Assembly (NCBI GenBank): GCA_017882605.1
Contig: JADGPE010000016.1
Coordinates: 1 to 36,120 of the forward strand
From: Thermoleophilia bacterium
Lineage (GTDB): Bacteria; Actinomycetota; Thermoleophilia; Gaiellales; Gaiellaceae
Length of the DNA stretch: 36,120 nucleotides
Reading direction: 5' to 3'
Shown here: piece after piece, positions 25,438 through 31,766 of the stretch
Numbering within the stretch: position 1 is the stretch's first letter
How the letters are laid out: every line of letters begins with the position of its first letter
Notes under the pieces: model-generated
What the model was told of the DNA's origin: nothing
The model's input: the letters and a program-made list of their open reading frames with translations, nothing else
Databases searched by the model: none
Translations under genes and position numbers: made by a program

Positions 25438-26430
25438 GTGCGCAGGGGATCGATCATTCAGCTCACCGCGATCGGGCTGGTCGCAGGTGCGATCTGCACC
25501 GCGGTCGCGCTGGCGATCCCGTGGCTGCCCGTCGCCGGCGGCCAGGAGGCGGGCCGGATCCATTTCGTCTACTGGTTCACGACGGTGATCGCGATCTGCG
25601 TGTTCTCGGTCGTCACGGCGGTGCTGGTCTATTCGGTCTGGAAGTTCCGGGCCGGCCCCGACGACGACTCGGACGGGCCGCCGACCCACGGGCACACCCA
25701 GCTCGAGATCGTCTGGACTGCGATTCCGGCCGTGCTCGTCACCGCGATCTCGATCGTGAGCGCGATCGTGCTCGCGCAGAACGGTCACGCCGGAACGAAC
25801 CCACTCGTGATCAAGGTCGAGGCGCGGCAGTTCGCGTGGAAGTTCACCTATCCGAACGGCACGAGCTTCGGCACGCTGACGCTTCCGCAAGGTCGTCACG
25901 TCAAGCTCGACATCACCGCCGACGACGTCATCCACTCGTTCTGGGTGCCTCAGCTCTCGCAGAAGCAGGATGCCGTCCCCGGGCAGCACAACTTCATCGT
26001 GATCACGCCGACGCACATCGCCACCTACCCCGTGGTGTGCACCGAGCTCTGTGGCCTCGGGCACGCACTGATGCGGAGCCAGGTCGACATTCTCGCCCCG
26101 GCGGACTACGAGAAGTGGGTCGCCCAAGGTGGGACGGCGAGCTCCGGGCCGCCCGGGCTCGCGGTCTTCCAGCAGAACGGCTGCGCTGGCTGTCACACGT
26201 TCAAGCCGGCGCTCGCGACGGGGAACGTCGGCCCCAACCTCGACAACCTGGCGCAGGAAGCCAAGCAGGCGAACCGCGGCGCGCTCGACGCGTTCATCAA
26301 GGAGTCGATCGTCAAGCCGCAGGCCTACATCGCGCCGGGCTTCACGGACGCGATGCCCCACACCTTCGGCACGCAGATCCCGCCGGACAAGTTGCAGCAG
26401 CTCGTGCAGTATCTGGCGAAGGGAGCCTAG
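25438..26430 (+). CDS. coxB: Cytochrome c oxidase subunit II fused to cytochrome c (caa3-type)
   Basis: A 330-residue electron-entry subunit. N-terminal signal/anchor (8-30) and a second helix (45-68) are followed by TQLEIVWTAIPAVLV, normal for subunit II. The periplasmic cupredoxin domain has the full CuA site: His166 (DVIHSFWVP), Cys201, Glu203, Cys205, His209 and Met212 in CTELCGLGHALM. After a Gly/Ser linker, a haem c domain follows: NGCAGCHTF (Cys249, Cys252, His253) and probable distal Met306. The fusion defines a caa3-type enzyme that takes electrons from cytochrome c. The GTG start has a TAGGCT hexamer 8 bases upstream. First gene of the operon. Confidence 0.95.
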   Translation: MRRGSIIQLTAIGLVAGAICTAVALAIPWLPVAGGQEAGRIHFVYWFTTVIAICVFSVVTAVLVYSVWKFRAGPDDDSDGPPTHGHTQLEIVWTAIPAVLVTAISIVSAIVLAQNGHAGTNPLVIKVEARQFAWKFTYPNGTSFGTLTLPQGRHVKLDITADDVIHSFWVPQLSQKQDAVPGQHNFIVITPTHIATYPVVCTELCGLGHALMRSQVDILAPADYEKWVAQGGTASSGPPGLAVFQQNGCAGCHTFKPALATGNVGPNLDNLAQEAKQANRGALDAFIKESIVKPQAYIAPGFTDAMPHTFGTQIPPDKLQQLVQYLAKGA

Positions 26431-26434
26431 AGCT

Positions 26435-28375
26435 GTGACCGACGTCGCACACGCCCACGATCTCCATGCAGCGCCGCCCGCTCCCACGGGCTGGCACCGC
26501 CTGACCGCGGCCGGCTGGCTGCGGGTGCTGTGGGTGACGCCGCTCTTCTTCGGGATCGGCGTTGCGCTGCCGGTGCTCCTCCGCTGGGCGGCCGATTGGC
26601 ATCCGCTCTGGAAGGGCTCGGTGATTCTCACGGTCGAGCTCGTCACGACGCCGATCGGCTTCCTCGCCGGCCTCGGCGTGTTCGACTACTGGGCCTACTA
26701 CGCGAGCGGCCGCCCGACGCGTCCGGAAGACCACTCCGGGCACGGCGCGCATTCGTGGCGCGACTACTTCCACGTCAACACCGACCACAAGGTGATCGGG
26801 ATCCAGTACGTCGTCACGACGTTCTTCTTCTTCCTTGTCAGCGGCTTCTTCGCGCTGCTTTTCCGTGCCGAGCTCGCCCAGCCGGGCGATCAGTACTTCA
26901 ACCCGCAGACGTTCAACGTGCTCGTCTCGGACCACGCGGCGCTGATGATCTTCCTCTTCATCGTCCCCGTGTTCGCCGGGCTCGGGAACTACGTGATCCC
27001 GTTGATGATCGGGGCGGGCGACATGGCCTTCCCGCGTCTGAACGCGCTGTCGTTCTGGCTGCTGCCGATCGGCGGCGCGATCCTGATCACAGGCATGGTC
27101 ATGCCGGGCGGCGGGCCGTCAGCCGGGTGGACGTGCTACGCGCCGCTCTGCTCTCATCAGCCGCTCGGCCAAGTGTTCTTCAACATGGGCGTCCAGTGGG
27201 CCGGCACGAGCTCGATCATGACCGCGCTCAACTTCCTGGTCACGATCATCACGATGCGCGCACCCGGTATGACGTTCTGGCGGATGCCGCTTCTCGTCTG
27301 GGCGAACTTCACGACAAGCCTCCTCGTCGTGATTGCCACGCCGTTCATCGCCGGCTCGCAGTTCTTCGTCCTGTTCGACCGCGTGCTGCACACGAACTTC
27401 TTCGAGCCCGGCGGCGGCGGGTACGTGCTCGGCTACCAGCACATCTTCTGGTTCTACTCGCACCCGGCGGTCTACATCATGATCCTGCCCGGCTTCGGGA
27501 TCATCAGTGAGGTGATCGCGGTGATGAGCCGCAAGCCGGTCTTCGGCTACCGGCTGATGGCGCTGAGCCTGATGGCGATTCTCGTGCTCGGCTTCTCGGT
27601 GTGGGCGCACCACATGTTCGTCGCGGGCATGGCGGGCTGGCTGCGCGTCCCGATGATGGTCACGTCGATGGTGATCGCGGTGCCGACCGGAGTGAAGGTC
27701 TTCTCGTGGCTCGCGACGATGTGGAACGGGCGCATCCGATTCACGACGCCGATGCTGTTCGCGCTCGGCTTCCTGTCGATGTTCGTGATCGGCGGCCTGT
27801 CCGGGATCTACCTTGCCTCGGTCCCGATCGACATCCACGCTTCCGACACGTACTTCATCGTCGCGCACATCCACTACGTGCTCTTCGGCGGGTCCGTCTT
27901 CACCATCTTCGCGGGCGTCTACTACTGGTTCCCGAAGATGACCGGCCGGATGTACAACGAGCGGCTCGGCCAGTTGCACTTCTGGCTGACGTTCATCGGT
28001 TTCAACCTCACGTTCTTCCCGATGCACTACATCGGGCTGCAGGGGATGCCGCGCCGCGTCGCCGACTACGCCCATCGCTTCGCCGACATCAACCTCTTCA
28101 TCTCGATCGCTTCCTTCGGTCTCGGTGCCTCCACGCTCGTCTTCCTCTACAACGTGATCAACTCCTGGGCGCACGGGCCTGTCGCCGAGGGCAACCCGTG
28201 GCGCGCGCTGACGCTCGAGTGGCAGGTCAGCTCGCCGCCGCCGATCTTCAACTTCGACGAGATCCCGCAGGTCGTCGGCCATCCGTACGAGTACGGCGTC
28301 CCGGGCGCCAAGCATGCGATCCTCGGAGCGCCTCGCCCGGTGCCGGTGCTCACCGATCCTGTCGGAGCCGACTGA
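26435..28375 (+). CDS. ctaD: Cytochrome c oxidase subunit I, A2-type
   Basis: A 646-residue haem-copper oxidase core. Haem a ligands are His167 (SDHAALMIF) and His480. CuB ligands are His343, His392 and His393 (VWAHHMFVAG), with the cross-link Tyr347. The haem a3 ligand is His478 (FIVAHIHYVLFGG). The D-channel end reads FYSHPAVYIMILPGFG: Tyr-Ser replaces the Glu of A1 enzymes, the mark of the A2 group. An N-terminal extension of about 110 residues with two extra hydrophobic segments (WVTPLFFGIGVALPVLLR, SVILTVELVTTPIGFLAGLG) precedes the usual HVNTDHKVIGIQY start. The GTG at 26435 is 4 bases after the coxB stop. It catalyses O2 reduction with proton pumping. Confidence 0.95.
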   Translation: MTDVAHAHDLHAAPPAPTGWHRLTAAGWLRVLWVTPLFFGIGVALPVLLRWAADWHPLWKGSVILTVELVTTPIGFLAGLGVFDYWAYYASGRPTRPEDHSGHGAHSWRDYFHVNTDHKVIGIQYVVTTFFFFLVSGFFALLFRAELAQPGDQYFNPQTFNVLVSDHAALMIFLFIVPVFAGLGNYVIPLMIGAGDMAFPRLNALSFWLLPIGGAILITGMVMPGGGPSAGWTCYAPLCSHQPLGQVFFNMGVQWAGTSSIMTALNFLVTIITMRAPGMTFWRMPLLVWANFTTSLLVVIATPFIAGSQFFVLFDRVLHTNFFEPGGGGYVLGYQHIFWFYSHPAVYIMILPGFGIISEVIAVMSRKPVFGYRLMALSLMAILVLGFSVWAHHMFVAGMAGWLRVPMMVTSMVIAVPTGVKVFSWLATMWNGRIRFTTPMLFALGFLSMFVIGGLSGIYLASVPIDIHASDTYFIVAHIHYVLFGGSVFTIFAGVYYWFPKMTGRMYNERLGQLHFWLTFIGFNLTFFPMHYIGLQGMPRRVADYAHRFADINLFISIASFGLGASTLVFLYNVINSWAHGPVAEGNPWRALTLEWQVSSPPPIFNFDEIPQVVGHPYEYGVPGAKHAILGAPRPVPVLTDPVGAD

Positions 28376-28376
28376 C

Positions 28377-29177
28377 GTGAGCCACATTCTCGTGATCGCG
28401 AACGAGACCGTCGCGTCGGAGACGCTGCTCGACGCCGTGCGGGGCGAGGCCGGCAGCGACGACCGCGTCACCGTCGTCGCCCCCGTGAACGAGCCGAGCC
28501 AGGGATACGTCGTCTACGAGGACACGCGCCGGGCGTCGGCCGGCCGGCGGCTCGACAAGACGCTGAAGGCGCTCCGCGAGGCCGGTCTCGCAACTCAGGG
28601 CTTCGTCGTCGAGACCGGCCCCGTGCAGGCGGCTAAGGACGCGCTCGCGCAGCTCGAGCCGAAGATCGACGAGATCGTGCTCGCGACGCACAGCGTGGAG
28701 CGCTCGGGCTGGATGCGGCGCGACGTCCTCGGCGACATCGAGCGCATCGCGGGCGTGCCCGTGAAGCACGTCGTCGTCGAACCGACCGACGGCGGTGAGA
28801 CGAACGTGCTCGTGATCGCGAACCAGACCGTCGTCTCGGACGAGCTGCTCGAGCGGATCCGGAAGCGTGCAGCGAAGAGCCCAGCGAGCTTCCTGATCGT
28901 CGCACCACAGAGCGACGACGAGGAGCACGCCGACGCCGACAAGCGGTTGCGCTTCGCCCTCACGGAGCTGCGCAGCGCAGGCATCGACGCGCACGGGCAG
29001 GTCGTGCATCCCGATCCCTACACCGCGGCCCGGCAGGTCGTGAACGACGAGCGGGTCGACGAGATCATCGTCTCGACCTTCCCGGGCGAGCGGAGCGGCT
29101 GGCTGCGCCGCGACCTCGTACAGCGGCTGCGCAAGGACACAGGTCTTCCCGTCGAGCACGTGATCTCCACCTCATGA
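28377..29177 (+). CDS. Tandem UspA-like protein inside the oxidase operon
   Basis: A 266-residue soluble protein made of two similar halves. Half 1 (4-134) starts ILVIANETVASETLLDAVR and ends EIVLATHSVERSGWMRRDVL plus GVPVKHVVV. Half 2 (143-264) starts VLVIANQTVVSDELLERIRK and ends EIIVSTFPGERSGWLRRDLV plus GLPVEHVIS. Each half looks like a universal-stress-protein Rossmann-like unit; the canonical G-x2-G-x9-G-S/T ATP motif is not clear, replaced by an ERSGW[ML]RRD motif. The GTG is one base after the ctaD stop and the TGA overlaps the cox3 ATG, so it is embedded in the oxidase operon. The role is unknown; redox-linked regulation or assembly is a guess. Confidence 0.8.
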   Translation: MSHILVIANETVASETLLDAVRGEAGSDDRVTVVAPVNEPSQGYVVYEDTRRASAGRRLDKTLKALREAGLATQGFVVETGPVQAAKDALAQLEPKIDEIVLATHSVERSGWMRRDVLGDIERIAGVPVKHVVVEPTDGGETNVLVIANQTVVSDELLERIRKRAAKSPASFLIVAPQSDDEEHADADKRLRFALTELRSAGIDAHGQVVHPDPYTAARQVVNDERVDEIIVSTFPGERSGWLRRDLVQRLRKDTGLPVEHVISTS

Positions 29178-29797
29178 CCTCTGCCGCCGAAACTCACGAC
29201 CAGGGGGCGTTCGAACACCACGGACCGCCTCCGGTCCACTACAGCTCACGAGTCTCCCCTTCGGTGCTCGGCATGTTCCTCTTCATCGCGTCGGAGATCA
29301 TGCTGTTCGGCTCGTTCTTCACCGTCTATTTCTTCGATCGCGTCGTCAACAACGGCGTCAACGGGGTCTGGCCGCCGAACGGTTATCAGCGTCCCGCGTT
29401 CGTCGCAGGCATCAACACGGTGATCCTCGTCTCGTCGAGCTTCACGATGCACTGGGCCGACACGTCGATCAAGAAGGGGAACCGGAGAGGCCTCTGCGCA
29501 GGGATGGTGCTGACGTTCCTGCTCGGCCTGACGTTCCTGCTCACGCAGGTGATCGAGTACCACCGCATCGGTTTCAACACGAGCGACACGTCGTTCGCCG
29601 CCACGTTCTTCGGCCTCACGGGATTGCACGGCGCGCACGTGTTCGTGGGCCTGACGATCCTCGGCGTCATGACCGTGAGGGCGTTCCGCGGGCACTTCAC
29701 ACCCGAGCACCATCACGGCATCGAGATCGGCGGCATCTACTGGCATTTCGTCGACGTCATGTGGATCGTCGTCTACGTGACGGTGTACCTCCTCTAG
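29174..29797 (+). CDS. ctaE: Cytochrome c oxidase subunit III
   Basis: A 207-residue membrane subunit with five hydrophobic helices. Landmarks: SVLGMFLFIASEIMLFGSFF (with the conserved Glu), INTVILVSSSFTMHWADTSI, VIEYHRIGFNTSDTSFAATF, GLTGLHGAHVFVGLTILGV and the C-terminal IGGIYWHFVDVMWIVVYVTV YLL. The His-Gly-x-His and WHFVD motifs are diagnostic. The first two helices of seven-helix subunit III are absent, as in other bacterial caa3 enzymes. It supports stability of the D-pathway. The ATG overlaps the stop of the Usp-like gene. Confidence 0.93.
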   Translation: MTSAAETHDQGAFEHHGPPPVHYSSRVSPSVLGMFLFIASEIMLFGSFFTVYFFDRVVNNGVNGVWPPNGYQRPAFVAGINTVILVSSSFTMHWADTSIKKGNRRGLCAGMVLTFLLGLTFLLTQVIEYHRIGFNTSDTSFAATFFGLTGLHGAHVFVGLTILGVMTVRAFRGHFTPEHHHGIEIGGIYWHFVDVMWIVVYVTVYLL

Positions 29798-30039: not shown

Positions 30040-30592
30040 AGCCCGCGCGCTGACGGTCGAGCAGGTCGATCCCATGCCGATGCGCGCCGAGCTGCGCGAG
30101 GTGCACCGGGCCGCTCTCGGTGCGGGCGCGCTGTCCGACGACTGGGCGGCAAACAGGCTGCCCCGCCACGTCCGGCGCGACGACTTCGTCTTCCTGGTCG
30201 CGCGCGACGGATCGGAGCTCGCGGGCTTCGGGTACGGGTACACCGGCGCGTACAAGCAGTGGTGGACCGAGCAGGTCGCACGCGCGCTCACCGTGGCCCA
30301 GCGCGAACAGTGGCTCGACCCCCCGCATTTCGAGATCGTCGAGCTGCATGTGCGGCCGTCCTGGCAGCGGTGCGGCGTCGGCAGCGCGTTGCTCGCGCAG
30401 CTGCTCAGCCGGCAGCCACACGACCGGGCGCTGCTCTCGACCCAGACCGGATCGAGGAAGGCGCGCAGCTTCTACGCCAAGAACGGCTGGACCGAGCTCG
30501 CGGACGTGGACTTCGGCAGCGGCTACCCGTCGTACCTCGTGCTCGGGAAGAACCTGGTTGCCCGCGAAGCGGGAACCAGGTTCACGTCGTAG
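30032..30592 (+). CDS. GNAT-family N-acetyltransferase
   Basis: A 186-residue acetyltransferase. Strands DFVFLVARDGSELAGFGYGY and HFEIVELHVRPSWQRCGVGS lead to the acetyl-CoA loop Q-R-C-G-V-G-S-A-L-L (motif A), and RALLSTQTGSRKARSFYAKN GW is the typical C-terminal motif B. The acceptor is unknown. The ATG (30032) overlaps the preceding stop by 8 bases, so it is the last gene of the oxidase transcript. Its last codons (LVAREAGTRFTS) are encoded within a hairpin that probably serves as terminator, so the C-terminal tail is likely dictated by the hairpin and not by function. Confidence 0.87.
   Translation: MLEARALTVEQVDPMPMRAELREVHRAALGAGALSDDWAANRLPRHVRRDDFVFLVARDGSELAGFGYGYTGAYKQWWTEQVARALTVAQREQWLDPPHFEIVELHVRPSWQRCGVGSALLAQLLSRQPHDRALLSTQTGSRKARSFYAKNGWTELADVDFGSGYPSYLVLGKNLVAREAGTRFTS
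30550..30583. terminator. Hairpin 1 of a matched pair between convergent genes
   Basis: GAACCTGGTT, bulged G, CCCGC, loop GAA, GCGGG, AACCAGGTTC: a 15-bp stem overlapping the end of the GNAT coding region. It shares its outer 10-bp arms with hairpin 2 (30608-30643). No T-tract. Confidence 0.65.
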
Positions 30593-30607
30593 GCCCGGCT
30601 CAGGACG

Positions 30608-30643
30608 CGAACCTGGTTTCGCCTGCGGCGAGAACCAGGTTCG
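30608..30643. terminator. Hairpin 2 of a matched pair between convergent genes
   Basis: CGAACCTGGTT, TCGCC, loop TGC, GGCGA, bulged G, AACCAGGTTCG: a 16-bp stem lying immediately after the stop of the cytochrome c gene (30644-30646, minus strand). The bulge is on the opposite arm to that of hairpin 1. Confidence 0.65.
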
Positions 30644-31330
30644 TTACTTGCCGGCTACCGAGCTGACGTAGGCCGCGACGGCCTTGATCTGGGCGTCGCT
30701 CAGCTGGCCCTTGAAGGCCGGCATCGGCCCGCCGCCGACCTCGACCTGGTGCGCGACTCTCGACTCCGACGGCTTGAGCTGGTCGAGGTTGGGACCGACG
30801 TTGCCGGTCGCGCCGGCGTCCTTGAGCGTGTGACAGCCGCCGCAGCCGGCCGAGGCGAAGACCTGCTTGCCCTCGGCGGTCGACGAGCCACCGCCCCCGC
30901 CGCCGGAGGATGTCGCCGAGGTGGTCGTAACCGGCGCCGCAGGCGTCGCGTTCGCGGCGGTGACGCCGCAGTTCGCGTTGCCTGCGCACTTGGCGATGTA
31001 CACCGAGACGTCGTCGGCGTCGCTGCCCTGGACGAGCTTCGCCGGCATCGGCGCCTCCGGATAGGCGACTTGCCCGCGCACGACATCGGCCATCGTCTGC
31101 TGGGAGAAGCCCTGCGCCTTGTCGGAGGCGAAAGCGTCGTCGAGATTCGGCCCGACCGTGCCCTGTGCGTGGGCGTCCGCGAGCGTGTGGCATGAGGCGC
31201 ACTTCGCCTGGAAGAGCGTCTTGCCTTGGCTCGGGTCACCCGCGGTGACCCGTTTGACGGCGCCGCAACCGGAGGCGGCGACCGCGACGAGGAGAACCGC
31301 AGTTGGAGCGAGGAGTCTGCGCGCGTTCAG
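30644..31330 (-). CDS. Di-haem cytochrome c lipoprotein, probable CTG start
   Basis: Two c-type haem sites: KCASCHTLADAHAQGTVGPN (first) and GCGGCHTLKDAGATGNVGPN (second), with possible Met ligands in EAPMPAKL and GGPMPAFKG. The frame upstream of the first haem encodes ARRLLAPTAVLLVAVAASGC, a lipoprotein signal whose Cys would be lipidated, so the mature protein would be membrane-anchored outside the cell. Between the STAS stop (31361) and 31094 there is no ATG, GTG or TTG in frame. The nearest usable codons are CTG at 31330 (228 residues) or 31336. The first conventional start, ATG 31093, would delete the signal and first haem. It may donate electrons to the caa3 oxidase (inference). Confidence 0.75.
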   Translation of the reverse strand: MNARRLLAPTAVLLVAVAASGCGAVKRVTAGDPSQGKTLFQAKCASCHTLADAHAQGTVGPNLDDAFASDKAQGFSQQTMADVVRGQVAYPEAPMPAKLVQGSDADDVSVYIAKCAGNANCGVTAANATPAAPVTTTSATSSGGGGGGSSTAEGKQVFASAGCGGCHTLKDAGATGNVGPNLDQLKPSESRVAHQVEVGGGPMPAFKGQLSDAQIKAVAAYVSSVAGK

Positions 31331-31360
31331 AGTCAGCTCGGAGTCAGGGTCAGCGTGGGG

Positions 31361-31723
31361 TCAGGACGGTTGGGTGACGCCGTCGAGCTCCGAGATCGCC
31401 TCAGCACGCGTCGCGTGAATGGCGAAGACGCGATCGAGGCCGGTGATCTCGAAGATCTTCGTGATGTTCCGGTCGCTGCAGACGAGCGAGAGCTGGCCGT
31501 CGTTTGTCCGCAGCCGCTTGACGCCGCCGACGAGCACGCCCAGCGTGGTCGAGTCGATGAAGGTGGTCGACGAGAAGTCGACGATCACCTGCTTGCCGCC
31601 CTGCCCGATCACCTCGAGCAGCTGCTGCTTGAACTCTGGCGCGGTGTAGAGGTCGACCTCGCCCGCGAGCGAGATCACGTAGGCGTCATCGGAGAGCTGC
31701 TCGGTCTTGATGTCGAAGTTCAT
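31361..31723 (-). CDS. STAS-domain anti-sigma factor antagonist (SpoIIAA-like)
   Basis: A 120-residue single STAS domain of the SpoIIAA/RsbV type: LAGEVDLYTAPEFKQQLLEV, GKQVIVDFSSTTFIDSTTLG with phosphorylatable Ser58, VLVGGVKRLRTNDGQLSLVC and ITKIFEITGLDRVF. In the known partner-switching systems it would sequester an anti-sigma kinase when unphosphorylated. No RsbW-like kinase or sigma factor is in the window. The ATG at 31723 is chosen because GGGGGA lies 7 bases upstream; a TTG at 31756 would lengthen it by 11 residues. A TAGACT -10 (31767-31772) predicts a leader of about 35 bases. Confidence 0.9.
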   Translation of the reverse strand: MNFDIKTEQLSDDAYVISLAGEVDLYTAPEFKQQLLEVIGQGGKQVIVDFSSTTFIDSTTLGVLVGGVKRLRTNDGQLSLVCSDRNITKIFEITGLDRVFAIHATRAEAISELDGVTQPS

Positions 31724-31766
31724 CTTGGTTCCCCCGAGTGCGTCTGTGGCAGGCAACTGCCGCGTG

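Follow-up and report, generated by a model that had tools for sequence, protein, structure and literature searches.

A di-haem cytochrome c gene of a Thermoleophilia bacterium probably starts at a conserved CTG codon just past an upstream stop

Initiation at CTG is seldom recorded in bacteria, one reason being that common gene callers do not accept this codon as a start. The conserved non-canonical start AUU of infC belongs to a single autoregulated gene. CTG is annotated as the start of 0.024% of ~85,000 bacterial genes (PMC11983097, PMC11497404). For the FIB replicon rep gene of E. coli plasmids, a CTG start was demonstrated by N-terminal sequencing together with a CTG-to-CTC mutation (PMC11983097). 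A second relevant group comprises neighboring genes whose stop and start share bases or are only a few nucleotides apart, and the NTGA overlap is the commonest coupled spacing (PMC12548453, PMC6728339). Here we analyzed a 36,120-nucleotide stretch of a Gaiellaceae genome (Thermoleophilia bacterium, assembly GCA_017882605.1, contig JADGPE010000016.1, positions 1 to 36,120; hereafter the window). On its minus strand lies a gene for a predicted di-haem cytochrome c lipoprotein, whose translation probably begins at a CTG shortly past the stop codon of a STAS-domain gene.

The locus resembles these systems in part. Like FIB rep, whose start is wrongly placed at a downstream GTG in databases (PMC11983097), the cytochrome gene would be a bacterial gene with a CTG start. 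However, FIB rep is one plasmid gene for which a good ribosome-binding site is important, whereas the present case involves several genes of a genus at stop/start junctions, and the cytochrome CTG lacks Shine-Dalgarno pairing. The nearness of stop and start is shared with NTGA/TGATG pairs; CTG is not mentioned as a start in the accounts of those pairs consulted here (PMC12548453, PMC6728339), whereas the genus conserves CTGA in three genes discussed below (lepB, a HAD phosphatase gene and a HIRAN-domain gene), and the cytochrome CTG stands shortly past the stop. A search of the literature on Thermoleophilia and start codons, limited to open-access articles and therefore weak evidence, found no report of such CTG starts. 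As in infC, a non-canonical start is conserved; unlike infC, the trait is common to unrelated genes. Rare CTG starts are known already, and here they are recurrent and conserved.

The minus-strand frame 30644–31360 was open from the STAS stop to a TAA, and reads PHADPDSELTLNARRLLAPTAVLLVAVAASGC...CASCH...CGGCH...stop. It encodes a basic n-region, a hydrophobic stretch and a Cys, followed by two haem sites, CASCH (31187–31201) and CGGCH (30830–30844). Two stretches of the frame matched the Pfam cytochrome c domain Cytochrome_CBB3 (6e-21), such that the two CXXCH sites fall in two cytochrome c domains, as befits a di-haem cytochrome c. These results bear out the original prediction of a lipoprotein-type signal and two haem sites in one continuous frame. 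The predicted lipoprotein-type signal peptide, MNARRLLAPTAVLLVAVAASG preceding the lipobox Cys (31265–31330, minus strand), was read off the sequence; its lipobox (AASGC) carries A at −3 and not L/V/I, and the n-region, hydrophobic core and Cys are conserved in orthologues. Directly upstream is the STAS-domain gene (anti-anti-sigma type; 31361–31756, minus strand; PF01740, E = 4e-21), which terminates at TGA 31361–31363. The window protein has the C-terminus ...GVTQPS*, and those of other genus members end similarly.

Between the STAS stop and the ATG at 31093 (31360–31094, minus strand), we found no in-frame ATG, GTG or TTG. Two in-frame CTG codons are present, one at 31336–31334 (24 nt past the STAS stop) and one at 31330–31328 (30 nt past it), just as had been described. 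The first conventional start is the ATG at 31091–31093, where a standard gene caller had been expected to begin, and the open reading frame (ORF) listing indeed gives 30644–31093. From the CTG at 31330, the cytochrome gene would span 30644–31330 (minus strand) and encode 228 amino acids. Its orthologues in the genus are 65–79% identical.

The original prediction had proposed looking in related genomes for ATG or GTG at this point. Searches of 13 genomes of the genus and 103 of the family yielded 80 usable cytochrome genes, in which the start, evident from the signal peptide, lies ~18–28 codons ahead of the lipobox Cys, with R or K as the usual next residue. A fixed rule assigned GTG to 38 genes, TTG to 20 and ATG to 10, with no start inside the search window in 12; for two of these 12 (G103, G099), a canonical codon sits just outside. 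All eight STAS-linked genes of the genus (from the window genome, G000, and from G008, G002, G005, G004, G001, G011 and G010) carry CTG at the homologous position with nothing canonical there. The four genus members whose cytochrome lies outside the STAS context (G006, G007, G009, G012) all carry GTG, and other genera use GTG, TTG or ATG. In the G000, G004 and G002 genes, the stretch ahead of the CTG runs back to an in-frame stop without any canonical codon, so no further start is possible in those frames. Two other genera gave ambiguous cases, G070 (L106) and G021 (L017), where the cytochrome has no clear canonical start and CTG or ATC occurs near the STAS stop.

Conservation of the codon itself was also pronounced. 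The start column of the eight STAS-linked genes reads CTG in 8/8, whereas the other two all-Leu columns are CTC in 7/8 and 8/8, and these genes use CTG for 29% of their Leu codons. At four-fold sites, the window gene differs by 34–47% from each of the other seven, so the conserved CTG does not reflect recent identity. On the mature-protein tree the CTG state required two changes, compared to 7.8 in shuffles. We conclude from these comparisons of sequence that the CTG start is, with high probability, real. The start at 31330 is favored, since this is the column that is CTG in all eight genes; the CTG at 31336 is less likely. The CTG-N-CTG pattern of the window also occurs in G008 and G004.

How would a ribosome start at such a codon? 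We assign a probability of about 0.82 to the reading in which a genuine CTG is used through termination-reinitiation to translate an exported di-haem cytochrome c with a lipid anchor, which probably carries electrons to an oxidase. Ribosomes finishing the STAS gene would remain bound to the mRNA and begin again at the CTG close by, using normal formylmethionyl-tRNA (fMet-tRNA), and the codon would be decoded as fMet. Nearness to the stop would stand in for both a Shine-Dalgarno sequence and a strong start codon. Termination-reinitiation appears to be the best mechanism because there is almost no Shine-Dalgarno pairing and because the CTG lies 2–30 nt downstream of the STAS stop in the eight CTG orthologues. 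Using the anti-Shine-Dalgarno sequence for Thermoleophilia taken from PMC10783764, pairing at the CTGs was −2.5 to +0.5 kcal/mol, weaker than the median of −3.8 for random 19-mers of the window. The STAS-cytochrome pair, a candidate for coupled translation, has its start near the upstream stop, and many other members of the cytochrome family show TAGTG-type (−1), +1 or −4 nt arrangements of stop and start. When E. coli lacks ribosome recycling factor, its ribosomes initiate at non-canonical codons that follow stops (PMC2268962), and both scanning and reinitiation models of coupling exist (PMC12548453). The further CTG starts of the window genome described below, and the CTG start demonstrated for FIB rep, also count in favor of this reading. 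Re-initiation, which the original prediction had listed as one possibility, remains the likely mode. Two changes to the initiation machinery were rejected as explanations: the genus has a normal initiator tRNA (GGG/CCC anticodon stem, CAU), and initiation factor IF3 was found in 12 of 13 genomes.

Several points weigh against this reading. The window CTG, at 24–30 nt, is farther from the stop than in the other orthologues, which use CTG at 2–19 nt. In E. coli, CUG yields 0.86% of AUG expression (PMC11497404), which seems low for a respiratory protein. The eight CTG sequences share ancestry and so are not eight independent events, and the assemblies are drafts in many pieces, most or all of them from uncultured organisms.

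The leading alternative keeps the CTG start and replaces reinitiation by de novo initiation by a free 30S subunit at the STAS-cytochrome junction, with the upstream gene serving only to unfold the mRNA. Unfolding of RNA is an accepted model of translational coupling (PMC12548453), and the unfixed distance from CTG to stop would suit it. The near lack of Shine-Dalgarno pairing speaks against such binding, as does the very weak de novo initiation that CUG supports in E. coli (PMC11497404); moreover, no unusually stable RNA structure was found at the junction (z = +1.07 and −0.90). We regard de novo initiation as unlikely, though deserving of more weight than the accounts that follow.

Another alternative is that translation begins at the ATG at 31093, the first conventional start codon of the frame, and that the coding-like part upstream is a decayed 5′ end or was deprived of its start by an assembly error. 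The product would then lack its export signal and first haem. Eight species assemblies without a canonical start nonetheless keep the signal, the lipobox Cys and the first haem intact, which makes this account very improbable. A sequencing error hiding a GTG or ATG, which the original prediction had named as a possible refutation, is excluded because the same CTG recurs in eight orthologues. Lastly, readthrough of the STAS stop into a STAS-cytochrome fusion had been suggested by the shared phase of the two frames, which holds in the window and fails as a general rule, because six orthologues checked frame by frame (G008, G002, G005, G011, G004, G001) carry the cytochrome out of the STAS frame; with a signal peptide not expected to function mid-way in a cytoplasmic STAS protein, we exclude it almost entirely.

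Termination-reinitiation at the CTG would produce a cytochrome whose role is suggested by its surroundings. We examined the neighboring ctaD, ctaE, STAS, TPR and TatC genes. The aa3/caa3-type oxidase genes ctaD (26129–28375) and ctaE (29174–29797) lie nearby on the other strand, and the cytochrome directly follows ctaE in some relatives (L015, L023–L025). This neighborhood suggests that the protein is probably an electron carrier to the adjacent oxidase. The cytochrome also passed the profile for the SorU sulfite dehydrogenase cytochrome subunit (NCBIfam NF052248; 123 bits against a cut-off of 100); we prefer the oxidase context over that label. Between the cytochrome and the convergent gene (30550–30642) we observed two hairpins ~60 bp apart with the stem GAACCTGGTT/AACCAGGTTC. 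They are a REP-like (repetitive extragenic palindromic) palindromic repeat, of which 11 units occurred in 613 kb of the window genome; the stem was also present in G008, and no units were found in 400 kb of G030.

To look for non-canonical starts elsewhere, we scanned 613 kb of the window genome without bias for frames whose coding signature extends ahead of their first canonical start, and then checked hits in the genus. The window cytochrome ranked first of 322 coding-like ORFs for this signal. Five further genes had CTG starts supported by orthologues: carB, lepB, and genes for a LuxR-type response regulator, a HAD phosphatase and a HIRAN-domain protein, the last two coming from a scan of stop/start junctions. 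All further CTG or ATA candidates sit at or shortly past the stop of the preceding frame. In carB (L170, G000:C40, codon end ~4811, minus strand), CTGCCTAG spans the carA stop in G000, G001 and G008, with an in-frame stop 2–3 codons upstream; the other genomes with a match have ATG, GTG or TTG. In lepB (L156, G000:C17, ~6911, minus strand), CTGA overlaps the trmD stop in six species (G000, G005, G002, G008, G004, G001), and the start is GTG or ATG in G011, G009, G007 and G006. The LuxR-type regulator (L149, G000:C10, ~8520, minus strand) has CTG in G000, G005, G002, G003 and G011, and in three of these five species an in-frame stop occurs two codons upstream. The HAD phosphatase gene (L098, 14161, plus strand), which follows another cytochrome, conserves CTGA over the upstream stop in six species despite variable spacing to the conserved LPxxFPR. 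The HIRAN-domain gene (L166, 5197, plus strand) has the same overlap in G000, G004 and G005. An ATA start is likely for a membrane Fe-S (heterodisulfide-reductase-like) protein encoded after etfA (L153, minus strand; L244–L249), where ATAG overlaps the etfA stop in five species, with GTA in one. On L174 (minus strand, reverse-complement coordinate 3612 on), we also noted an FAD/NAD-dependent oxidoreductase (MSPEPHIVVLGGGSSGEHF); an ATC that overlaps the gene upstream is its most plausible start.

In this sample, 6 of 761 coding ORFs (~0.8%) were assigned CTG starts. This is a minimum, since the method cannot see any gene that happens to have a canonical codon close by. The junction scan, which looked for CTGA with no canonical start in the vicinity, yielded five raw candidates in G000, of which guaB and gyrB have an ATG 16–18 codons on. 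In the controls, all small, this count was zero in G007 and in Cupriavidus and Rhodococcus megaplasmids, and one candidate appeared in G030, from another genus. Across 396 genomes of the phylum, 172 carB genes were detectable, with a CTG start in 2 and a canonical start in 170. Both CTG cases belong to the class of the window: the window genome itself and G395, from another family, in which the CTG is also at the carA-carB junction. With the window genome removed, the frequencies were 1/15 in the class and 0/156 outside, a difference that was not significant. These data suggest an enrichment of CTG starts in the lineage, in numbers too small for proof. We consider the chances about even that the genus, and perhaps the class, uses CTG (occasionally ATA) as a regular start at stop/start junctions, in ~1% or more of its genes.

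The wider pattern across several genes is more interesting than the single cytochrome case. Standard annotation would truncate or miss the CTG-start genes of this genus, and protein databases are probably losing export signals and cofactor sites of this lineage. One genus conserves CTG in a respiratory cytochrome gene as well as in carB and lepB, which suggests that a strong start codon can be replaced through coupling to an upstream stop; start-codon fidelity in reinitiation becomes a testable question. If the broader use of CTG is true, reinitiating ribosomes would be relaxed in their choice of start codon, and annotation would be systematically wrong for an entire category of bacterial genes.
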